A stretch of 64,000 nt of DNA from Bradyrhizobium sp. AZCC 1610. Lineage in GTDB: Bacteria; Pseudomonadota; Alphaproteobacteria; Rhizobiales; Xanthobacteraceae. The first letter of the stretch is position 1, and every line of letters begins with the position of its first letter. Location of the stretch: contig NZ_JAZHRR010000001.1 of the NCBI RefSeq assembly GCF_036924515.1, positions 2,699,001 through 2,763,000 of the forward strand, written 5' to 3'. A model generated the notes under the pieces. It had not been told where the DNA came from and searched no databases. It saw only the letters and a list, made by a program, of their open reading frames with translations. This document shows, piece after piece, positions 2,404 to 13,421 of this stretch. The translations under genes and the position numbers were made by a program.

Positions 2404-2808
2404 TTAGTGCGCCATGCCGCGTGCCACTTCGTAACAGGCCTCCATGCAGCGGCGGCAGCTTTCCGCGCAGATGCGGCAATGTTCATGCATGGCGGCGTGC
2501 GTCTGGCACTCCTCCGCGCAAAGCCGGCAGGCGGCGGCGCATACGCTGAGCATGCGGCGCATCACTTCGTCATCGGAACCTGTCCGGCGGGTCATGATGC
2601 GGCCGGTGATGTTGCAGATGTCGGCGCAATCCAGATCCAGGCGGATGCATTGGGTCAGCTCCTGCACCATGCGCTCCGACAGGCAGGCGTCGGCACAGGA
2701 GGTGCAGGTCTGTGCGCAGGAGTAGCATTCCTCGATGCAGCGGATCAGGGCGTCGTTGATCTGGCCCTGGACGGCCGGGTGGGTACCGATCATTTCGCGG
2801 GCGTGCAT
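2404..2808 (-). CDS. Cys-rich four-helix-bundle copper storage protein (Csp3-like)
   Basis: The 134-residue protein contains 18 cysteines, mostly as CxxxC pairs along helices (CIEECYSCAQTCTSC, CADIC, CAAACRLCAEEC, CRICAESCRRCMEAC), the pattern of Csp/YhjQ bundle proteins that hold many Cu(I) ions inside a four-helix core. There is no signal peptide, so it should be cytosolic like Csp3. AAGGAGC precedes the ATG; the open frame upstream lacks a ribosome site. The neighbouring RND copper/silver-type pump supports a copper role. Confidence 0.88.
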   Translation of the reverse strand: MHAREMIGTHPAVQGQINDALIRCIEECYSCAQTCTSCADACLSERMVQELTQCIRLDLDCADICNITGRIMTRRTGSDDEVMRRMLSVCAAACRLCAEECQTHAAMHEHCRICAESCRRCMEACYEVARGMAH

Positions 2809-2969
2809 GGTGAGCTCCTTGCTTGAAGGTTGGCCGCAAACGGGGCGTCCGCTATTCCAAGCCGCGGCCAGCGAAAATGTTCTGGCCTCCGGCAAGAATG
2901 AATGCCGGCGGGGCCTGGATGGGCCGGTCGATCCAACGCAATGCGGCGCAGCCCGATCGGATTATGTTA

Positions 2970-3420: not shown

Positions 3421-3487
3421 TCGCGCGGCGCTTCGTGGCGTCCGCTTGATGCTGCCATGGCAGCTAACCAGAGATCGAGTTATCAAC

Positions 3488-3895
3488 ATGAAGTTCAATC
3501 AGTTTTTGCGCAGCCTGCGGGTCGCGCTGATCGGCGCTGCCTTGACGTGCGGCCCGACCGTCGCGTTCGCGGATATCAAGAATTACGAGTTCAAACTCGT
3601 CGAACCGACCGTGAAGACCGGTCCCGACAAACCCATCGCCGTGAAGCTCGTCGACAAGACCACAGGCAAGCCCGTTCCGAACGCGGTGATTTTCGCGACG
3701 CGGCTGGATATGGCCCCGGATGGAATGCAGGAGATGGCCACCAAGCTTACCCCGGTGCCAGGAACAGAACCAGGCACCTATGGCTTCAAGGCCAATTTCA
3801 GCATGGCCGGTCGGTGGCAATTGTCACTCGCCGCCAAGGTGCAGGGTGAACCCGGCACGGTCGAAAGCAAGCTCGTCATTCAGGCCGACCAATGA
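3488..3895 (+). CDS. FixH/YtkA-like exported protein
   Basis: The 135-residue protein has a signal peptide ending FADIKNYEF and one Ig-like beta domain: VKTGPDKPIAVKLVDKTTGK, a MAPDGMQEM segment and GTYGFKANFSMAGRWQLSL. That is the YtkA/FixH type of fold, which is often found with heavy-metal RND systems and thought to bind or hand over metal in the periplasm. It overlaps the adaptor gene by 4 bases (ATGA). The role in copper transfer is inferred from context. Confidence 0.75.
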   Translation: MKFNQFLRSLRVALIGAALTCGPTVAFADIKNYEFKLVEPTVKTGPDKPIAVKLVDKTTGKPVPNAVIFATRLDMAPDGMQEMATKLTPVPGTEPGTYGFKANFSMAGRWQLSLAAKVQGEPGTVESKLVIQADQ

Positions 3896-5292
3896 AACGG
3901 TCAGTCCTGATCGCCCTCGCGGCTGCCGCCATCGGGGCTGCGGCGGTGGCCGGCGTCGTCTCGCGTTCATTCATCTTGTCGAGCGGAGATTCCAAGCACG
4001 CTCATGTCGTCGCGCAGGCCGAACCGTCTGCTGCCGCGATCTATTATCAGGATCCGGATGGCAAGCCTTTCTATTCGCTGACGCCGAAGAAGACGCCTGA
4101 TGGCCGCGACTACCGCGCCGTCCCTGCGGGCGCAGACGTAAGTTTCGACGATCCGGCGGAAGTGACGGCTGCACCGACTGCCGATCGCAAGATCAAATAC
4201 TACCGCAATCCGATGGGCCTGCCGGACGTTTCGCCGACACCCAAGAAGGATTCGATGGGGATGGATTACATCCCCGTCCACGAGGGCGAGGACAGCGACG
4301 ACGGATCGGTCAAAGTTTCGCCCGGAAAGATTCAGCGCACCGGCGTCAAATCGGAGCCGGCCGCCCTCCGTCCGATCCGGACGGTCGTGCGCGCGCCAGG
4401 TACGATCCAGCTCGACGAGCGCCGTGTCTCGGTCATCGCGATGCGCTCGGAAACCTACCTGCAATCGGTCGCCGACGTCACGACTGGTACCTTCGTCAAG
4501 AAGGGACAGCCCCTGATGCAGGTCTACAGTCCGGCAGTTTCCAGTGCGGCCGCCGAGTATGTGACGACATTGACGTCCAGGACTACGGCCGGCGAGCCCT
4601 CCTACGGACGCGGCTCGCGGCAACGGTTGATGAATCTCGACGTGCCCGACGCGGTGATCACCGCGATCGAACGGACGCGGATCGTTCCTGTGACCGTCGA
4701 GTGGTCGGCTCCGCGTGACGGCATCGTGCTGGAACGCAACGCGGTCCAGGGCATGCGAGCTCAACCAGGCGACGTACTCTTCCGCGTCGCCGATACGTCC
4801 GTGGTCTGGGCGATGATCGACGTAGCCGAGCGCGACCTCGGCGCGCTTGCGGTCGGACAGCCCGTCACCGTTCGGGCGCGCAGCTTCCCCACGCGGGACT
4901 TCTCCGGACAAATCTCGGTCATCTACCCCCAGGTCAACCGCGAGACACGGACAGCCCGCGTTCGGGTCGAACTCGACAATCCAGATCTCGCGTTGCTGCC
5001 GGACATGTACGTAGATGCCGACATCGATATTGGCGGCTCGGAGCCCGTTGTGTCGGTTCCCGACAGCTCGGTGCTTGATACGGGCGCTCGGCAGGTCGTC
5101 CTTGTCGACAAGGGCGAGGGCCGGTTCGAACCTCGCGACGTCAAGATCGGCCGTCGGGGAGGCGGGCTAATCGAAATCCGCAGCGGGGTGAAAGACGGCG
5201 AGCCCGTTGTCGTTGCGGCCAATTTTCTGATCGATGCGGAGAGTAACCTCAAGGCCGCTCTCAAGGGCTTTGCCGAGGGAGCGCAGCAATGA
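3892..5292 (+). CDS. RND efflux periplasmic adaptor (CusB-type)
   Basis: The 466-residue membrane fusion protein links the inner-membrane pump to an outer-membrane channel. After an N-terminal anchor come two heavy-metal-binding-domain copies: YYQDPDGKPFYSLTPKKTPDG (about 45-68), which is degenerate, and YYRNPMGLPDVSPTPKKDS (about 102-122) with DSMGMDYIPVHEG, which is intact. The barrel-sandwich and beta-barrel regions follow, with PRDGIVLERNAVQGMRAQPG. It overlaps cusA-type gene 5289 by 4 bases. The Met-containing domain favours Cu(I)/Ag(I). No outer-membrane factor gene is present in the window. Confidence 0.92.
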   Translation: MKRSVLIALAAAAIGAAAVAGVVSRSFILSSGDSKHAHVVAQAEPSAAAIYYQDPDGKPFYSLTPKKTPDGRDYRAVPAGADVSFDDPAEVTAAPTADRKIKYYRNPMGLPDVSPTPKKDSMGMDYIPVHEGEDSDDGSVKVSPGKIQRTGVKSEPAALRPIRTVVRAPGTIQLDERRVSVIAMRSETYLQSVADVTTGTFVKKGQPLMQVYSPAVSSAAAEYVTTLTSRTTAGEPSYGRGSRQRLMNLDVPDAVITAIERTRIVPVTVEWSAPRDGIVLERNAVQGMRAQPGDVLFRVADTSVVWAMIDVAERDLGALAVGQPVTVRARSFPTRDFSGQISVIYPQVNRETRTARVRVELDNPDLALLPDMYVDADIDIGGSEPVVSVPDSSVLDTGARQVVLVDKGEGRFEPRDVKIGRRGGGLIEIRSGVKDGEPVVVAANFLIDAESNLKAALKGFAEGAQQ

Positions 5293-8200
5293 TTGCCCGC
5301 TTGATCGCCTGGTCGGCGCGTAACCTGCTGCTGGTGCTGTTCGGCACCGGCTTCGCGGCCGCAGCGGGTATCTACGCGCTCGTCCATCTGCCGCTGGACG
5401 CCATCCCCGACCTCTCTGACACGCAGGTCATCGTGTACACGGAGTACCCCGGCCAGGCGCCCCAGGTCATCGAGGACCAGGTCACCTATCCCCTGACGAC
5501 GGCGATGCTGACGGTACCGAAGTCGAAAGTGGTTCGCGGCTTCTCGTTCTTCGGCGTCTCGTTTGTCTACGTCATCTTCGAGGATGGTACCGACATCTAT
5601 TGGGCGCGCTCGCGGGTGCTCGAATTCCTGAACGGCGCGACCTCACGCATTCCCGCCGGCGTGACGCCGACTATCGGCCCGGATGCGACCGGTGTCGGCT
5701 GGGTTTACCAATATGCTATCGTGTCGAAGGAGCTGAACCTTTCCGACACCCGCACGATTCAGGACTGGAATCTGAAGTTCGCGCTCGCCAAGGCCGAAGG
5801 CGTCGCGGAAGTGGCGAGCGTCGGCGGCTTCGTCAAGCAGTACAACGTGATCCTCGATCCGCAGCGCATGCGCGACCGCGGCATCACCATGCAGAAGATG
5901 CGCGAGGCGATCCGTGCCAGCAACGCTGACGTTGGCGGCCGCACCGTCGAGCTGTCCGAATTCGAATACGTCATCCGTGGCAAGGGCTACCTGAAGAGCA
6001 TCAACGACCTCGGCAACGTCGTGCTGAAGGTTAGCAATGGCACGCCCGTCCTGGTGCGCGACGTGGCGAGAGTCGAGCTCGGCCCTGACGAGCGGCGCGG
6101 CATCACCGAACTCAACGGGGAAGGCGAGGTCGCGAGCGGCATCGTGCTGCAGCGCTTTGGCGTCAATGCGCTGGACGTGATTCAAAACGTCAAGAAGCGC
6201 TTTGCGGAAATCGCTTCCAGCCTGCCGAAATCGGTCGAGATCGTGCCGGTCTATGACCGCTCCAACCTGATCAATGCCGCCATCGACACGCTCAAGAACA
6301 CGTTGCTGGAGGAATGCATCATCGTGGCGCTGGTGTGCATTGTGTTCCTGCTGCACGTCCGCAGCGCGCTGGTCGCCATCCTGATGCTGCCGGTCGGCGT
6401 GCTGATGGCCTTCGGTGCGATGAAACTGCTGGGGATTGGCTCCAACATCATGAGCCTCGGCGGCATTGCGATCGCGATCGGCGCCATGGTCGATGCCGCG
6501 ATCGTCATGATCGAGAATGCCCACAAGCACTTGGAACGGGCGGAGCCCGGGAAGTCCCGAGTGACGATCCTGATCGAGGCGGCCGCGCAGGTCGGGCCGG
6601 CGTTGTTCTTCAGCCTCTTGATCATCACCGTATCGTTCATGCCGATCTTCACGCTGGAGCAGCAAGAAGGGCGGCTGTTCAGCCCGCTGGCCTTCACGAA
6701 GACCTTCGCCATGGCTGCCGCCGCGCTGCTCTCGGTGACGCTTGTGCCAGCGCTGATGGTGATCTTCGTCCGCGGCAGAATCGTTCCCGAGCACAAAAAT
6801 CCGATCAACCGCTTCCTGATCTGGATCTATCGGCCCGTCATCAAGGGCGTCATGCGCGCCAAGATGCTGGTCATCCTGCTCGCGCTCGCAATTCTGGCCG
6901 TGAGCGTCTGGCCCGCGCGCCAGCTCGGCACCGAATTCATGCCGAATCTGAACGAGGGCACGCTACTCTACATGCCGACGACATTGCCGGGCATCTCGAT
7001 CACCAAATCCGCTGAGCTGATGCAGACCCAGGATAGGATCATCCGGTCGTTTCCGGAAGTCGAATCCGTCTACGGCAAGGCAGGCCGCGCCGCGACCGCA
7101 ACCGACCCGGCGCCATCGGAAATGTACGAGACCATCGTCAATCTCAAGCCGAAGCAGGAGTGGCGGGCCGGCGTGACGATCGACAGCCTGATCGCGGAGA
7201 TGGACAAGGCATTGCAGTTTCCGGGCGTCTCCAACGCTTGGACCATGCCGATCAAGGCCCGGATCGACATGCTGTCGACCGGCATCCGCACCCCGATCGG
7301 GGTCAAGGTGATCGGCACCGATCTGGTCGAGATCGACAAGCTCGCCAAGCAGATCGAGCAGGTCCTGAAGGCTGTCCCTGGCACCTCGTCCGCCTACGCC
7401 GAGCGTGGCATCGGCGGCTATTATCTGGAGATCACGCCGGACCGCGAAGCGATGGCGCGCTACGGCATCATGGTCCAGGACGTCCAGGACACCATTGCAA
7501 CGGCGCTTGGCGGGCAGACGGTCACGACGACAGTCGAGGGCCGCCAGCGCTTCTCAGTCAACATGCGCTACCCCCGGGATTTGCGCGACAATCCAAAGGC
7601 GATTGCAAGCGACGTGCTGGTGCCAATGCCGGCCGGCGGCGCCGTCCCGCTCGGCGAAGTCGCAAAGATCGCCCCCGCGCGCGGGCCGTCCTCGATCCGC
7701 ACCGAGAACGGCCAGTTGGCGACCTACATCTATGTCGACATCCGCGACCGCGACCTCGGCGGCTACGTGGCCGACGCCCAACGGGCTGTGCAGTCCAGCA
7801 TCCAGTTTCCACCCGGCTACTATGTGATGTGGAGCGGCCAGTACGAATATCTCGAACGCGCCACGGCAAGGCTGAAAATCGTCGTTCCCGCGACGCTGCT
7901 CATTATTTTCCTGCTCTTGTACCTCAATTTCCGGTCCGTCACCGAGACGATGATCGTGATGCTGTCGCTGCCGTTCGCGCTGGTCGGCGGGTTCTGGCTG
8001 ATGTGGTGGCTCGGCTTCAATCTTTCGGTGGCGGTCGCAGTCGGCTTCATTGCGCTCGCCGGCGTAGCCGCCGAGACCGGTGTCGTGATGCTGATCTACC
8101 TGAACCAGGCGCTCGCCGAAATCAGGGCCCGCCGCGACGCCGAAAACCAGCCGCTGACGAAGCGTGATCTCTACGATGCCATCATGGAAGGCGCGGTGGA

Positions 8201-8471
8201 GCGGGTGCGGCCGAAGATGATGACGGTGGTGGCCATCATGGCCGGGCTGCTCCCGATCATGTGGAGCAGCGGCACCGGCTCGGAGATCATGCAGCGCATC
8301 GCGGTGCCGATGATTGGCGGCATGGTCTCCTCGACGCTGCTGACGCTGATCGTGATCCCCGCGATCTTCGGTCTGGTGAAGGGATTTGGGCTGAAGGATA
8401 CGGACGATTCTGCCGGGGCCCCGCCGTCGATCGCTGTCGCACCTCGAAAAGTTCCCGAGCTTGCCCAATGA
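5289..8471 (+). CDS. Heavy-metal RND efflux pump (CusA-type)
   Basis: The 1060-residue inner-membrane proton-driven antiporter has the HME family signatures: an N-terminal helix, LDAIPDLSDTQVIVYTEYPG, the transmembrane acidic motif GAMVDAAIVMIENAHKHLE near residue 400, GTEFMPNLNEGTLLYMPTTLPG in the second porter half, and WTMPIKARIDMLSTGIRTPI, which carries methionines of the copper/silver relay type. The length is normal for the family. It works with the adaptor upstream; the outer-membrane channel must come from elsewhere. Confidence 0.93.
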   Translation: MIARLIAWSARNLLLVLFGTGFAAAAGIYALVHLPLDAIPDLSDTQVIVYTEYPGQAPQVIEDQVTYPLTTAMLTVPKSKVVRGFSFFGVSFVYVIFEDGTDIYWARSRVLEFLNGATSRIPAGVTPTIGPDATGVGWVYQYAIVSKELNLSDTRTIQDWNLKFALAKAEGVAEVASVGGFVKQYNVILDPQRMRDRGITMQKMREAIRASNADVGGRTVELSEFEYVIRGKGYLKSINDLGNVVLKVSNGTPVLVRDVARVELGPDERRGITELNGEGEVASGIVLQRFGVNALDVIQNVKKRFAEIASSLPKSVEIVPVYDRSNLINAAIDTLKNTLLEECIIVALVCIVFLLHVRSALVAILMLPVGVLMAFGAMKLLGIGSNIMSLGGIAIAIGAMVDAAIVMIENAHKHLERAEPGKSRVTILIEAAAQVGPALFFSLLIITVSFMPIFTLEQQEGRLFSPLAFTKTFAMAAAALLSVTLVPALMVIFVRGRIVPEHKNPINRFLIWIYRPVIKGVMRAKMLVILLALAILAVSVWPARQLGTEFMPNLNEGTLLYMPTTLPGISITKSAELMQTQDRIIRSFPEVESVYGKAGRAATATDPAPSEMYETIVNLKPKQEWRAGVTIDSLIAEMDKALQFPGVSNAWTMPIKARIDMLSTGIRTPIGVKVIGTDLVEIDKLAKQIEQVLKAVPGTSSAYAERGIGGYYLEITPDREAMARYGIMVQDVQDTIATALGGQTVTTTVEGRQRFSVNMRYPRDLRDNPKAIASDVLVPMPAGGAVPLGEVAKIAPARGPSSIRTENGQLATYIYVDIRDRDLGGYVADAQRAVQSSIQFPPGYYVMWSGQYEYLERATARLKIVVPATLLIIFLLLYLNFRSVTETMIVMLSLPFALVGGFWLMWWLGFNLSVAVAVGFIALAGVAAETGVVMLIYLNQALAEIRARRDAENQPLTKRDLYDAIMEGAVERVRPKMMTVVAIMAGLLPIMWSSGTGSEIMQRIAVPMIGGMVSSTLLTLIVIPAIFGLVKGFGLKDTDDSAGAPPSIAVAPRKVPELAQ

Positions 8472-8557
8472 ACAAAGTGGACAAGGAACTTCCTGGCCTC
8501 GGATTTTTTCGGCTCGATGCAGAGACTGTAACCAAATCCGCCGGATCGTCGAACTAA
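8468..8557 (+). CDS. Possible 29-residue ORF coupled to cusA-type gene
   Basis: An ATG overlaps the pump stop codon (ATGA) and opens a frame reading MNKVDKELPGLGFFRLDAET and ending at 8557. The overlap suggests coupling, but the 3' half holds the SigF-type promoter motif, so the frame may be no more than leader sequence. Confidence 0.3.
   Translation: MNKVDKELPGLGFFRLDAETVTKSAGSSN
8528..8553 (+). promoter_or_regulatory. SigF-type ECF promoter GTAACC-N16-CGAA before the sigma gene
   Basis: GTAACC at 8528-8533 and CGAA at 8550-8553 are separated by exactly 16 bases. This matches the consensus I recall for the Caulobacter SigF/NrsF system, which autoregulates its own operon. Transcription would start near 8560, just ahead of the sigma ATG at 8571. 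The same motif occurs at 10264. Confidence 0.75.
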
Positions 8558-8570
8558 CGAGATAGCAGGC

Positions 8571-9128
8571 ATGACGACCCTCGAAATCGAACTCAAGGCC
8601 CTCATGCTTGCGAGCCTGGACGGTAACGCGGCATCGCACCGCTTGCTGCTCGATCGGTTGAGCCGTCGCCTGCGTGCTTACTACAAGACCAAACTCATCG
8701 CAGTCGGCAGAGGAATAGCGGAGGCGGAAGATTTGGTGCAGGAAGCCATATTGGCGATCCACCTCAAGCGGCATACCTATGATTCGCGGGAGCCACTCAC
8801 GCCTTGGGTGCACGCCATCGCACGCTACAAACTGATCGATTTTTTGCGCCGCAATCGCGCGTCGCTCGCCGAGATGCCGATCGACGCGGCCGATGAGGTC
8901 ATGGCACATGATGACAATGCCGACGCCGAAAGTACGCATGATATCCGGCGGCTTATGCAGCGGCTGCCGGAAGGCATGCAATGCGCGATCGAGGCCGTAA
9001 AACTTGATGGGCTGAGCGTCGCCGAAGCCGCGAATCGATGCGGTCTCTCCGAGTCGGGCGTAAAGGTAAATATTCATCGCGGGCTCAAAGCGCTCGCTGC
9101 GCTGATCGCCCGGGAAACGCGAACATGA
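8571..9128 (+). CDS. sigF: ECF RNA polymerase sigma factor (SigF-like)
   Basis: The 185-residue sigma factor has region 2 (AEAEDLVQEAILAIHLKRHT, then TPWVHAIARYKLIDFLRR) and region 4 (LPEGMQCAIEAVKLDGLSVA, then GLSESGVKVNIHRGLKAL). It overlaps the next gene, a six-helix NrsF-type anti-sigma factor, by 4 bases. That pair is known from Caulobacter, where it answers chromate and cadmium. Position right behind a metal efflux pump and the GTAACC/CGAA promoter both support the assignment. Confidence 0.9.
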   Translation: MTTLEIELKALMLASLDGNAASHRLLLDRLSRRLRAYYKTKLIAVGRGIAEAEDLVQEAILAIHLKRHTYDSREPLTPWVHAIARYKLIDFLRRNRASLAEMPIDAADEVMAHDDNADAESTHDIRRLMQRLPEGMQCAIEAVKLDGLSVAEAANRCGLSESGVKVNIHRGLKALAALIARETRT

Positions 9129-9766
9129 AGACGGATGATCTGGTTGCGCTGCTGAGCACGAACCTTGAGCCGGCCGACCGGAATTCGGTCGTTCGCATGC
9201 TTTGCGTCGCCATTGCCGCAGGGTCGATCGTGGCGATCGGCATCGCATTTGTCGGCTTGGGCTTCCGCGCCGACCTGACGACGACCCGCGCGCTGATATT
9301 TCTTGCCGTAAAGCTCGCTTTCGCAATCGGTGTCGTCGGTCTCTCTCTGGCTTACTTGACGAGGCTGGCACACCCCGGCGGGGAACGAAAAATCTCGCCC
9401 CTCTTAATCGCTGTGCCGTTTCTCGTCGTTCTGGTTCTTGCCGCAATCAGCCTTGGATCCACGCCCCGCGCGCATTGGGAAAGGATGATCGTGGGCGATG
9501 AATGGCTGGAATGCCTTCTCTCCATTCCGGTCATTGCGATCGTTCCCTTCGCCGTTTCAATTTGGGCCGTGCGAAAGGGTGCTCCCACCAATCTTTCGCG
9601 AGCCGGCGCGTTCGCAGGCCTCATCGCGGGAGGCGTCAGCGCAATGGCTTATGCGCTCCATTGTACGGACGATTCGCTGCCGTTTATCGCCGTCTGGTAT
9701 GGCGGAACGATTGTACTGTGCACCCTGGCAGGTGCGGCATTGGGACCGCGGCTGTTGCGCTGGTGA
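9125..9766 (+). CDS. nrsF: NrsF-family (DUF1109) membrane anti-sigma factor
   Basis: The 213-residue protein has six hydrophobic segments and holds the ECF sigma factor inactive at the inner membrane. It carries Cys130 (DEWLECLLSIP) and Cys180 (YALHCTDDSLPF). In Caulobacter NrsF the two cysteines needed for metal response are numbered 131 and 181, so the sensing residues are probably kept. C27 and C199 are extra. The start overlaps the sigma stop codon (ATGA). Confidence 0.9.
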   Translation: MKTDDLVALLSTNLEPADRNSVVRMLCVAIAAGSIVAIGIAFVGLGFRADLTTTRALIFLAVKLAFAIGVVGLSLAYLTRLAHPGGERKISPLLIAVPFLVVLVLAAISLGSTPRAHWERMIVGDEWLECLLSIPVIAIVPFAVSIWAVRKGAPTNLSRAGAFAGLIAGGVSAMAYALHCTDDSLPFIAVWYGGTIVLCTLAGAALGPRLLRW

Positions 9767-9922
9767 GCAGCGAAATTGAAGCGCTTCACGAGGGCGTGAC
9801 CGGCGTCGCTGCGACGCCAAGGTGTGGCCGCCCAGCAGCCAGAGATTGAGATGCGCTCATGTTTGGTTTCCCCGCTCTGAGCGGTATCGCGCGGAGCGCT
9901 TGAGCAACGCCATCCCGATCAA

Positions 9923-10045
9923 TCAGGAGCGTAGGTACTTGATCGATGCCGCAATCCCGAGCACAGCGAAGGCGAAAATCGCGAGGTGATAAACCCCCAT
10001 CGCCACCATCATGCCGGAGCCCATCGCTGTCATATCCATGGTCAT
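9923..10045 (-). CDS. 40-residue Met-rich single-pass membrane miniprotein
   Basis: The reading frame begins MTMDMTAMGSGMMVAMGVYH, followed by a hydrophobic helix and the end ASIKYLRS. Seven methionines lie in the first 16 residues. GGAGG stands 6 bases before the ATG. The end matches the IKYLR of the other miniprotein at 11023, and both start with a Met-rich cap before one membrane helix, so they look like divergent paralogues. A role in binding Cu(I)/Ag(I) at the membrane is inferred from Met content and neighbours. Confidence 0.65.
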   Translation of the reverse strand: MTMDMTAMGSGMMVAMGVYHLAIFAFAVLGIAASIKYLRS

Positions 10046-10076
10046 GAATTGCCTCCAACATTCGCAGTTCGAGGAG

Positions 10077-10259
10077 ATGACGGTCGGCAAAGATAGCATG
10101 GATGAAGCGGTCGCGCCGACCATTTCCATTGAGTGGATCGGCGGTGGCCGGACGCGCTTGAAAGGCGAGTTAACGGTGGATGGCCTTGCAGGTTCGCAGG
10201 CGCAATATCGAACCCGTGATCTTGCGGAAATCCAACGCCTTGTTTTCACGTCGGCGTGA
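10077..10259 (+). CDS. Hypothetical 60-residue protein
   Basis: The frame reads MTVGKDSMDEAVAPTISIEW, has a GGGRTRLKGELTVDG hairpin-like segment and ends RDLAEIQRLVFTSA. No signal peptide or membrane segment is visible, and the ribosome site (GAGGAG) directly abuts the ATG, which is too close. A later ATG at 10098 is possible. It faces away from the Met-rich miniprotein gene and ends just before the second SigF-type promoter. Family not recognised. Confidence 0.4.
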   Translation: MTVGKDSMDEAVAPTISIEWIGGGRTRLKGELTVDGLAGSQAQYRTRDLAEIQRLVFTSA

Positions 10260-10263
10260 GCCT

Positions 10264-10289
10264 GTAACCGGATGACAATCGGCTCCGAA
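10264..10289 (+). promoter_or_regulatory. Second SigF-type promoter GTAACC-N16-CGAA
   Basis: GTAACC at 10264-10269 and CGAA at 10286-10289 have the same 16-base spacing as the motif at 8528, and both copies share the extended form TGTAACC...CGAACT. It stands about 55 bases before the exported-protein gene at 10344, so that gene and the small-protein/cytochrome genes after it are likely SigF targets. Confidence 0.72.
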
Positions 10290-10343
10290 CTCATGGTTAG
10301 AAGCGCACATCAAAGGCGCTTTCAAACATCATGGAGCCGGAAC

Positions 10344-10604
10344 ATGTCAACCAAACACCTTCTCACGATGTCCCTCTTGTTGCCGCTCGTGGCGGTCTCC
10401 GCGACTGCACAGGCAGGCTCGACCATTACCGATAAGAGTTACTGGCCGAGCGAGGCCATGCAGAGCACGCCGTTCAGGGCTGGCGCGCGAACCGACGCGT
10501 ATTCTGCGTTTGCCTACGATCGAGCAACGTCGCGTTTTGAGCCCGCAACCACCAACAGGGGCGGATCGGCATTCCGTTATCAGGGCGGTCCGAAGGGCCG
10601 TTGA
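10344..10604 (+). CDS. Small exported protein, likely SigF target
   Basis: The 86-residue protein has a clean signal peptide (STKHLLTMSLLLPLVAVSAT, cut after AQA) and a mature part of about 62 residues rich in Ser, Ala, Thr, Arg and Tyr with no cysteine. The start is chosen for the signal peptide and the GGAG 9-10 bases ahead; the frame is open further upstream. It is the first gene behind the second GTAACC/CGAA motif. No family is recognised. Confidence 0.75.
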   Translation: MSTKHLLTMSLLLPLVAVSATAQAGSTITDKSYWPSEAMQSTPFRAGARTDAYSAFAYDRATSRFEPATTNRGGSAFRYQGGPKGR

Positions 10605-10741
10605 TGTTGCGCGGGCGCAGTATCGCAGAGCGAGGGTCGCGGCCGACGCCCTTTGACGCGACCTGAAGCACAAGAGGTTGCGGATAATCATCTACCTCCC
10701 GCAACCGTCCTCGTTTCACCGCGGAAGGAGAGAGCATTCCA

Positions 10742-10978
10742 ATGACGTTATTTCAGCACGACGACACCCCAATGGGCGGGACCTCACTGGGCACCACTTT
10801 GGGCAATTATTTCGCTCGCTATCGGATGGCGCTGTACGTTGTCTTTGCAACGGCAGTTTCCTTGAGTGTCGCCTGGAACTGGAATTGGCTGACAGGCGCC
10901 GAGATATTTCGCATCATGGCGTCTCTGCCGTGCACGTTCATGATGCTCATGTGCATGAAGCGCGCGGCTTGCAGGTAA
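10742..10978 (+). CDS. Small membrane protein with Met/Cys-rich C-terminus
   Basis: The 78-residue protein has one or two hydrophobic segments (MALYVVFATAVSLSVAW and the FRIMASLPCTFMMLMCMKRA end). The C-terminal CTFMMLMCMKRAAC packs five Met and three Cys into 20 residues, which would place soft-metal ligands at a membrane face. AAGGAGAG precedes the ATG. It lies between the exported protein and the miniprotein on the same strand. Function unknown. Confidence 0.65.
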   Translation: MTLFQHDDTPMGGTSLGTTLGNYFARYRMALYVVFATAVSLSVAWNWNWLTGAEIFRIMASLPCTFMMLMCMKRAACR

Positions 10979-11022
10979 CCCTTCAACAGGCGGTTGTTTC
11001 GCGAGATGTCTGAGGTGAGCCA

Positions 11023-11157
11023 ATGATGGACAATATGATGCCCGGAATGATGTGGGGCATGGGGTTCATCTGGTTGTTGGTCGTGATCGTCTTGATCTTG
11101 GCGGCCGCGGCACTGATCAAGTACCTTCGCACCGGGAGCAGGGACGGTCGGCAATGA
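11023..11157 (+). CDS. 44-residue Met-rich single-pass membrane miniprotein
   Basis: The frame starts MMDNMMPGMMWGMGFIWLLV, continues as one membrane helix and ends in IKYLRTGSRDGRQ. Seven methionines precede the helix. GAGGTGA lies 5 bases before the ATG and the stop overlaps the cytochrome ATG (ATGA), so the miniprotein and cytochrome are translationally coupled. The IKYLR end and Met-rich cap match the 40-residue protein encoded at 9923-10045 on the other strand. Confidence 0.75.
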   Translation: MMDNMMPGMMWGMGFIWLLVVIVLILAAAALIKYLRTGSRDGRQ

Positions 11158-11870
11158 ACAAGCTCATTGTCATTGGGCTTTCAACGATTGCACTGGCATC
11201 TCCGTCGGCAGCCCAGCACAGCGACGTCGCGCGGGGTCAACGGGATTTCCGCATGTGCGCGCCATGCCATTCGCTTGAGGCGGACCAAAACATGACGGGG
11301 CCGAGCCTTGCCGGCCTCTGGGATCGCAAGGCCGGCTCGTTGCCGAGCTTCGAACGCTACTCCGATGCTCTCAAATCGTCCGGCATTATCTGGGACGATC
11401 GCTCGTTGGACGCCTGGTTGACCGATCCCGACCGCATGGTGCCGGACAATGAAATGCCGTTTAACGGCATCAAGGCCCCGCAGCGCCGTGCAGACCTGCT
11501 CGCGTTTCTGAAGGAAGCAACAAAACCGGGAGCCGCGCCGGAGCGGTACGCTCAAGGGCAAATGGGAGGCATGGGCGGGATGATGGGTGGAATGATGGGC
11601 GGCGGCCGCATGCCCAATTTGAAAAGCCTGGAGTCGAACATGCAGGTGAAGACGATCACCTACTGTCGCGACACCTATCGGGTGACTACGGCCGACGGCA
11701 AGACCCGCGCATTTTGGGAACGCAATCTGCGCCTGAAAACCGATTCCGGCAAAGATGGCCCGCAAATTGGCGCGCCGGCCCTCGTGCCCGCGGGAATGAT
11801 GGGGGACCGGGCAGATGTGATTTTTGCCGCCCCGGAAGAGATCAGCAAGTTGATCGAGGCGCGGTGCTGA
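11154..11870 (+). CDS. Periplasmic c-type cytochrome with Met/Gly-rich linker
   Basis: The 238-residue protein has a signal peptide (NKLIVIGLSTIALASPSAAQ), a cytochrome c domain with heme motif CAPCH and axial Met in DNEMPF (about residues 35-125), a low-complexity linker MGGMGGMMGGMMGGGRMP, and a C-terminal domain of about 80 residues with one Cys pair candidate (TYCRDTYR and the final EARC). The linker is a probable soft-metal site. The coupling to the miniprotein suggests both act at the membrane-periplasm face. Confidence 0.85.
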   Translation: MNKLIVIGLSTIALASPSAAQHSDVARGQRDFRMCAPCHSLEADQNMTGPSLAGLWDRKAGSLPSFERYSDALKSSGIIWDDRSLDAWLTDPDRMVPDNEMPFNGIKAPQRRADLLAFLKEATKPGAAPERYAQGQMGGMGGMMGGMMGGGRMPNLKSLESNMQVKTITYCRDTYRVTTADGKTRAFWERNLRLKTDSGKDGPQIGAPALVPAGMMGDRADVIFAAPEEISKLIEARC

Positions 11871-12098
11871 GAGAGAACTGGCATTGAAGGCGTTCGACGG
11901 TGGCAGGACCGGCTGAAACCGGCGTGCAAATCCATCAGCGGCGGCTCCCATCCCCCAACTTGTGATGTCCTTCACCATCGCCGCAGAAAAGATCAGATAA
12001 GATTGGTTTACCCGAAGCATTTTGCGTGGGGCGCACGTATCCGTGGATCCGTTTTAGTCTCTGGATCCCATTTGCACACTCCCTCCCAGGAGGAGCAC

Positions 12099-13421
12099 AT
12101 GCCAGATCTTGCAAGAAGTCATGCCGCGGTTATTGGCGCCGGCATGGCCGGTCTTACGGCCGCTCAGGCGATCTCCAGGCATTTCAGGAAAGTCACGATC
12201 ATCGAGCGGGACGTGCTTCCCGCCGAGGCAGAGCCCCGAAGCGGCACGCCGCAGGCCCAGCATGCCCATATACTGCTCGCGGGCGGGCTGCAGGCGCTGC
12301 AGACCCTGTTTCCGGGATTTGAGAACGATCTGGCGGAAGCGGGCGCCGTGAAGATCCGCACCGGGAAGGATATGAGGTTCGAGCGCCCCGGCTTCGATCC
12401 TTTCCCGATTCGCGATCTCGGCTTCGACATTTTCTGCATGTCGCGTCCGCTGCTCGAAGCCGTTACGCGACGACGCGTTCAGCAGAGTCCGAACATCGAC
12501 ATTTGCGTGCGTTCCCGCGTGACCGGGCTTGTCCCCTCGCGTGATGCAACGCGGATCGAGGCGGTCCGGTATGATGGCGAAGATGGTCCTGTGACCCTGG
12601 AAGCCGACCTGGTGGTTGAAGCCTCCGGCCGCTGCGGCCTGACGCTGCGGCTGCTCGAAGAGCTTTCTCTGCAGAAGCCCGAAGAAACCGAGATCGGCAT
12701 TGATCAGGCCTACGCGAGCACCATCGTCGAGCGACCAATCGATCACAATGCCGACTGGCTGGGCAATATCGTCCTGCCGTCCGCACCGGCCAGCAGCCGC
12801 GGGGCGTTCCTGTTTCCGATCGAGAAGCAGCGATGGCTGCTCTCCGTCGGAGGCAATCATGGTGATGCGCCTCCGGGCGACCGCGCGGGATTCATGGATT
12901 TCGTCATGAGCCTGCGCACCCCGACCATCTATGACGCGGTCAGGGACGCGCGACCGCTGACTGATATCGTCCGCTACCAGCTGCCTTGCAGCACACGGCG
13001 GCATTTCGAGCGCCTGGAGTCTTTCCCGGCAGGGCTGCTCGCGATAGGCGATGCCCTCTGCCGCTTCAATCCAGTGTTCGGCCAGGGCATGAGCGTGGCC
13101 GCGCAGGAGGCCGTGATCCTGGACCGGTTGTTGGCGGAAGATGTCCCCATGGAGCGCCTGGCGCGTGACTTCTTCGCTGCTATCCAAGACACCATCGCGA
13201 CGCCGTGGGGCGTTGCCGTGAGCGATTTCGCCTATCCCGCCACGCGCGGCGTTCCGCCCGCCGACCTCGCGCAGCGCCTGCAATATGGTGTGGCCCTGAC
13301 CAAGCTCGCCGCGCAGGATCCCGAGGTGCACCGGCTGACGGTGGAAGTCTCGCAACTGCTCAAGCCGCAGGCCGCGCTGCGCGAGCCAGCGCTCGCGGCG
13401 CGCGTGATGGCGCTGATATGA
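12099..13421 (+). CDS. FAD-dependent oxidoreductase (halogenase/GG-reductase-like)
   Basis: The 440-residue flavoprotein has the N-terminal dinucleotide motif VIGAGMAGLTAAQAI, an ERDV strand end, and the second FAD motif GDALCRFNPVFGQGMSVAAQ at about residues 318-337. The overall plan is that of p-hydroxybenzoate hydroxylase-fold monooxygenases and reductases. No membrane segment is visible. AGGAGG lies 6 bases before the ATG. The substrate cannot be told; it is followed at a distance by a methyltransferase gene on the same strand. Confidence 0.85.
   Translation: MPDLARSHAAVIGAGMAGLTAAQAISRHFRKVTIIERDVLPAEAEPRSGTPQAQHAHILLAGGLQALQTLFPGFENDLAEAGAVKIRTGKDMRFERPGFDPFPIRDLGFDIFCMSRPLLEAVTRRRVQQSPNIDICVRSRVTGLVPSRDATRIEAVRYDGEDGPVTLEADLVVEASGRCGLTLRLLEELSLQKPEETEIGIDQAYASTIVERPIDHNADWLGNIVLPSAPASSRGAFLFPIEKQRWLLSVGGNHGDAPPGDRAGFMDFVMSLRTPTIYDAVRDARPLTDIVRYQLPCSTRRHFERLESFPAGLLAIGDALCRFNPVFGQGMSVAAQEAVILDRLLAEDVPMERLARDFFAAIQDTIATPWGVAVSDFAYPATRGVPPADLAQRLQYGVALTKLAAQDPEVHRLTVEVSQLLKPQAALREPALAARVMALI

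Follow-up and report, generated by a model that had tools for sequence, protein, structure and literature searches.

Two SigF-type promoters probably join an ECF16 sigma/NrsF operon to a putative copper-related operon in Bradyrhizobium

The 64-kb stretch of Bradyrhizobium sp. AZCC 1610 DNA analysed here (the window) carries two sites, P1 and P2, that are very probably the promoters of an ECF16 sigma/NrsF system, judging from their sequence and conservation. P1 (8527..8553, + strand) stands before the operon of a sigma factor and its anti-sigma factor, and P2 (10263..10289, + strand) before an operon that begins with exp86, a gene for an exported protein; both match TGTAACC-N16-CGAA exactly. 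Taken as a whole, the data lead us to favour, with reasonable confidence, a copper-responsive SigF/NrsF branch that would be separate from the EcfF-OsrA system and would carry a cargo unlike the bufferins of Caulobacter. The evidence for P1 and P2 as promoters is comparative and does not come from counting the short motif in the genome.

The core motif GTAACC-N16-CGAA has exactly two matches in the window (8528-8553 and 10264-10289), both on the + strand, where 0.06 are expected, and none of 100 shuffles produced two sites in one window. An earlier sequence-only reading had placed the motif at these positions before the sigma gene and the exported-protein gene, which is confirmed, as they are the sole exact pair of the window. 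Because the 16-base spacers differ in sequence, its description of two identical promoters applies to the boxes and the spacing only, with the longer form TGTAACC-N16-CGAACT common to P1 and P2. The motif also agrees, as that reading had stated for Caulobacter SigF, with the SigF/ECF16 element given in published excerpts (PMC3511200, PMC8315932). In the scan of the 7.75-Mb genome that it had suggested, GTAACC-N16-CGAA occurs 11 times and its reversed control also 11 times, and therefore the boxes alone are unspecific and define no regulon, whereas the extended form TGTAACC-N16-CGAAYT occurs at P1 and P2 only. The short motif alone was rejected as a regulon finder; of the remaining nine genomic sites, five or more (L004, L007-L010) fall within long frames that look coding. 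A scan of 8400-12150 for sigma-70 promoters and terminators yielded one of each, not above shuffles (1.4 and 4.0).

The sigF-like gene (8571..9128, + strand) encodes a predicted ECF sigma factor of 185 amino acids with Pfam matches to Sigma70_r2 and r4_2 and 310 bits to NCBIfam NF009191. Directly downstream, with a 4-base gene overlap, lies the nrsF-like anti-sigma gene (9125..9766, + strand, 213 amino acids; Pfam NrsF, E 2.4e-63). The encoded protein has cysteines at 27, 130, 180 and 199, among which Cys130 and Cys180, 50 residues apart, are kept in every one of the 19 rows of an alignment that excludes L047. The cysteines 130 and 180 that had been noted close to those of Caulobacter are thus present; the counterparts are 131/181 in Caulobacter (PMC3511200) and 129/179 in OsrA (PMC3420878), according to excerpts of these papers. 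The system accordingly has the features of an ECF16 (SigF) system: sigma regions 2 and 4, an NrsF/DUF1109 gene downstream, the two cysteines, and (T/C)GTAACC-N16-CGAA before its own operon. Against the NrsF equivalog NCBIfam NF042994, the window protein scores 97 bits where the cut-off is 300, so that it is a member of the Pfam family only. Cys199 (9719-9724) is nearly invariant in the branch and missing from the OsrA-type row. Just 17 bases (8554-8570) lie between the -10 box of P1 and the start codon assigned to sigF, so that translation may in fact begin further downstream; an excerpt on ecfF makes the same proposal for that gene (PMC3420878).

The anti-sigma search covered 100 relatives and found matches in 67, from which 18 same-genus loci with at least 54% identity were taken with their flanks as sister loci. 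P1 is kept in 17 of them (14 exact, two with one mismatch, one with two mismatches), 43-54 bases before the aligned SigF start; none was found in the remaining locus, L046, where the SigF start is unaligned. P2 is kept in all 18 (16 exact, two with one mismatch). The first gene behind it is exp86 in 16 sisters, with the aligned start 50-66 bases downstream, and in the other two P2 is followed by a different small exported protein (L058) or an MC78-like gene (L059; MC78 is described below). A genome scan with an exp86 alignment gave 62 loci, including those of Bradyrhizobium, Afipia and Tardiphaga, at which the best match to TGTAACC-N16-CGAA was sought up to 260 bases upstream. P2 is present with at most one mismatch at 53 of these loci (50 exact, three with one mismatch), while the reversed-motif control never fell below two mismatches and hence reached this level at 0 of 62. 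The other nine loci have three or more mismatches and no P2, which counts against our explanation. P2 is also present in L116 and L120, where sigF and exp86 are encoded on opposite strands. Judged from these alignments, P2 and its gene have been retained together much more often than chance would allow, and the proposal that SigF-type promoters link the sigma operon to the cluster behind P2 is supported by its retention in sisters and exp86 loci alike.

The same pattern holds on a wider scale. Across 80 loci totalling 1.41 Mb (the 62 exp86 loci and the 18 sister loci, 8 of which repeat loci among the 62), there are 143 motif sites and no control sites; 67 sites stand before exp86, 59 before SigF, and 17 elsewhere. 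A sigma/anti-sigma pair (at least 50% identity) accompanies exp86 at 52 of the 62 loci, with an exact P1 in 44 of the 52, and among the 10 exp86 loci without the pair the motif precedes exp86 in one (L086). Among 195 genomes of the genus, 59 contain the extended motif, with 116 sites in all against 15 control sites, and 28 same-strand pairs of sites are 1150-1350 bases apart, the usual distance between P1 and P2. It would be hard to credit that P1 and P2 are a chance coincidence. The equal genome-wide counts of the short motif and its control would fit such a view, which is already contradicted by the excess of extended sites over controls in the genus and by position-specific conservation in the sister and exp86 loci.

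The genome holds a second NrsF-family pair, which is EcfF-type and whose anti-sigma factor is about 30% identical to that of the window. It is therefore conceivable that P2 is a real ECF16 promoter read mainly by this paralogous sigma factor, and cross-talk of ECF16 paralogs has been suggested in B. japonicum, in an excerpt of the source (PMC3420878). We regard this as improbable on two grounds. First, the EcfF type has a promoter of its own: GTAACR-N15-CGAATTG occurs in 19 of 22 control loci (20 with a weaker NrsF match plus L060 and L061), and the 22 contain no TGTAACC-N16-CGAA, no exp86 and no CusA of 75% identity; an RND pump at 31-32% is found in five. Second, the extended motif tracks the NrsF branch of the window: among the 57 genomes common to both searches, it is present in 13 of 14 with this branch versus 5 of 43 without it (Fisher p 4e-8). 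In the NrsF tree of 57 rows, the window falls into a clade of 19 (support 98/97) together with sequences of several plasmids, and the OsrA-type clade is separate (100/100, 5 rows), although bootstrap values had not converged and the tree contains some long branches. A Cupriavidus sequence beside DUF2282 and an MNIO enzyme belongs to the wider clade (98/94). With a supported clade of its own and a different promoter, the window system does not belong to EcfF-OsrA.

All four genes described by the sequence-only reading are present behind P2 on the + strand. The first, exp86 (10344..10604), encodes a putative exported protein of 86 amino acids whose signal peptide was judged by eye; it has no Pfam match, and its database relatives number 1914 at E<=0.01. 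MC78 (10742..10978) encodes a small Met/Cys-rich membrane protein of 78 amino acids (8 Met, 3 Cys; no Pfam match), and its relatives are found behind exp86 at several loci. Met44 (11023..11157) encodes a Met-rich, single-span miniprotein of 44 amino acids (7 Met), and relatives of it adjoin the cytochrome gene at several loci. The last gene (11154..11870), which overlaps Met44 by 4 bases, encodes a class I cytochrome c (Pfam Cytochrom_C) that also has a linker rich in Met and Gly and, at its C-terminus, a conserved domain. Among the 60 matches listed, solved cytochromes match positions 23-126 only, and the C-terminal domain (11514-11870) has no Pfam match; its cysteines 171 and 238 are invariant in 9 of 9 relatives. 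The term Met-rich small-protein cluster is apt for MC78 and Met44 and does not fit the exported protein, which has 3 Met and no Cys. The four genes are presumably co-transcribed, and their order varies between relatives. None of them has a Pfam match to DUF2282 or MNIO (DUF692), so the operon is not a SigF regulon of the bufferin type.

In the window, 500 bases separate P2 from the end of the NrsF match, compared with 27-41 bases in 16 sister loci. Approximately 460 extra bases between nrsF and P2 (9767-10230) are absent from these 16 sisters, and P2 stays with exp86. On the - strand at 9923-10045, there is a small Met-rich reading frame that is Met44-like and nearer to the Met-rich miniprotein of L052.

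The leader behind P2 (10290..10346, + strand) can form a conserved hairpin, composed of inner arms at 10300-10306 and 10316-10322 (GAAGCGC/GCGCTTC) and outer arms at 10290-10298 and 10327-10336, between the CGAA box and the exp86 start codon (10344-10346). The outer helix ends at the Shine-Dalgarno sequence GGAG (10333-10336). Pairs were counted on 51 distinct leaders, i.e. 53 without L072, a duplicate, and L080, which was extracted at less than full length and matches the model. In these, 85.6% of the cells pair versus 37-51% in slid controls, and 11 of 16 pairs show two-sided changes versus 5.0 after shuffling and 4-9 after sliding; these values were reached by none of 500 shuffles, which ignore relatedness. 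Compensatory changes appear to have preserved the hairpin in Bradyrhizobium, Afipia and Tardiphaga. The two-sided changes cluster in two outer pairs, those at bases 6 and 7 after CGAA (15 and 11 sequences), and bases 1-5 hardly covary at all; for EcfF, an excerpt of the source puts the transcription start 6 bases after its -10 box (PMC3420878). Besides this clustering, the two-sided changes of the slid controls and the relatedness that the shuffles ignore, two results speak against the hairpin: RNAalifold, given these 51 leaders, retains no more than 4 of the inner pairs, at about 0 kcal/mol, and the mean fold z-score of the 53 leaders versus plain shuffles is only -1.6.

At E<=0.01 the leader model matches one place in the AZCC 1610 genome, the P2 leader, and has matches in 33 of 80 genomes of the genus. 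In 38 sources, each of the 23 matches above 40 bits stands before exp86, and the other motif-bearing genes in those sources have no match at E<=0.1. A weaker match, L234 (28.5 bits), is an exp86-like leader, and L058 has an exp86-like gene behind the motif with a leader that the model does not match. Eight weak loci (L232, L233, L235-L240) were discarded, as they resemble a palindromic repeat of the CTCATCCTGAGGAGCGC type that is dispersed in the genus. It may be that the exp86 hairpin was itself derived from this repeat. Rfam gave no match at E<=1 within 8400-12000, and hence no known RNA family for the P2 leader. We suggest only tentatively, and with more doubt than conviction, that the hairpin might be a new RNA element providing a second, post-transcriptional control of stability or translation and, jointly with this, that exp86 might found a family of periplasmic copper-stress proteins.

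The surroundings of the sigma operon point to copper. Upstream lie a CusA-like Cu/Ag RND pump (5289..8471, + strand), a CusB-like adaptor (3892..5292, + strand; Pfam HlyD_D23), a YtkA/FixH-like protein (3446..3895, + strand; Pfam YtkA) and a Cys-rich DUF326 protein (2404..2895, - strand; Pfam DUF326), which presumably resembles copper-storage proteins. The pump is closest to CusA, with 1225 bits to E. coli CusA versus 564 to the zinc pump ZneA, and an alignment read by hand retains three copper-site methionines, which we take to be 573, 623 and 672 of CusA. CusA (at least 75% identity) is near 43 of the 52 loci that have exp86 and the sigma pair, some of these stretches ending at contig ends. 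Against our explanation, no motif with two or fewer mismatches precedes the CusBA operon or the DUF326 gene of the window. The 17 motif sites elsewhere, whose genes were named for part only, include sites before CusB (L059), YtkA-CusBA (L120), a Cys-rich protein followed by YtkA and CusBA (L103), CusF (L102, L110), DUF411 (L103), Met-rich exported proteins (L115, and L059 and L120, there with MC78-like genes), and nrsF itself (L115). CusF, DUF411 and YtkA at these sites are confirmed by Pfam, which matches none of the Cys-rich, Met-rich and MC78-like proteins.

The branch also occurs on plasmids typed as conjugative. The sigma/NrsF pair lies near annotated copper genes on plasmids of Bradyrhizobium BTAi1, Afipia carboxidovorans, Nitrobacter hamburgensis and Microvirga, and no clear copper gene was seen in the Methylobacterium plasmid stretch with the pair, which speaks against copper in the strict sense. 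Plasmid pMR68 of Pseudomonas sp. K-62 (L144, 7735) has the ECF16 motif before merT, beside a sigma/NrsF pair of the window's branch; the signal may therefore be mercury, or thiophilic metals as a class. In Caulobacter, sigF is copper-induced and its mutant copper-sensitive, according to excerpts of PMC8224329. The copper link of the regulon is well supported but unproven, and copper, as the putative signal, is better supported by the gene context than chromate or cadmium.

The same promoters and regulon could instead serve an oxidant signal, either H2O2 or hypochlorite, with the Met-rich proteins acting as oxidant sinks. Excerpts on the related systems lend this some weight, as EcfF answers to H2O2 (PMC3420878) and BcrS to hypochlorite, the first target of the latter being a Met-rich peptide (PMC8315932). 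We nevertheless consider it unlikely, because, in relatives, those motif-bearing genes that can be named are copper genes, the window shows no gene for methionine sulfoxide reductase behind P2, and the window branch stands apart from OsrA in the NrsF tree.

We therefore return to the copper-responsive branch, for which the following mechanism is suggested. In the unstressed cell, the membrane anti-sigma factor NrsF would hold the sigma factor. An excess of copper, or some other thiol-binding metal, would act on Cys130 and Cys180, and the freed sigma factor, which is predicted to bind and read both P1 and P2, would then transcribe two operons, its own through P1 and one for defence through P2. 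The products of the latter, i.e. exp86, the Met/Cys-rich membrane protein, the Met-rich miniprotein and the cytochrome c, would work next to the CusBA pump in the cell envelope, where they would bind copper or detoxify it.

The ECF16 systems described so far have bufferin, methionine-repair or oxidative-stress cargo, and the present branch would add the exported exp86, which falls into no known family, Met-rich miniproteins and a cytochrome. In this genome the regulon appears compact, with two strong sites; in single relatives the CusBA pump or CusF seem to join it under the same promoter. It may also be a case of one genome separating two ECF16 systems by one promoter base and a one-base difference in the spacer. 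In the excerpts consulted, the targets named for Caulobacter SigF, Bradyrhizobium EcfF, Brucella BcrS and Sinorhizobium RpoE7 do not include the cargo behind P2, a comparison by names, not sequences, in which several targets are called hypothetical; the claim of a regulon absent from the known set holds to that extent. Excerpts of the open-licence literature on ECF16 sigma factors with copper or a Cus pump contain the copper induction of Caulobacter SigF and no description of this regulon.

Compared with Caulobacter SigF-NrsF, the window system has the same GTAACC-N16-CGAA promoter, an NrsF-family anti-sigma factor and two cysteines 50 residues apart (PMC3511200), and copper, known there as an inducer (PMC8224329), is the putative signal here. 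It differs in its NrsF, which lies below the equivalog cut-off, and in its cargo: the Caulobacter targets named in these excerpts are DUF2282/DUF692 (bufferin) clusters and a Met-sulfoxide reductase, as opposed to exp86, Met-rich small proteins and a cytochrome. Brucella BcrS-AbcS shares the promoter form and has a Met-rich peptide gene as its first target, but responds to hypochlorite and carries a Met-sulfoxide reductase system, and the excerpt of the source mentions no Cus genes (PMC8315932). Bradyrhizobium EcfF-OsrA belongs to the same ECF16 group, genus and anti-sigma family, with cysteines 129 and 179, whereas its clade is another, its anti-sigma factor is only about 30% identical, and EcfF responds to H2O2 (PMC3420878). 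The EcfF-type promoter has A or G instead of the last C, and its spacer is one base shorter. A bufferin locus of Cupriavidus metallidurans (L208) also has a sigma-NrsF pair and the exact motif before both divergent operons. It is presumably of the gig type named in literature passages; its cargo is DUF2282 and an MNIO enzyme, and its NrsF is about 35% identical to that of the window.
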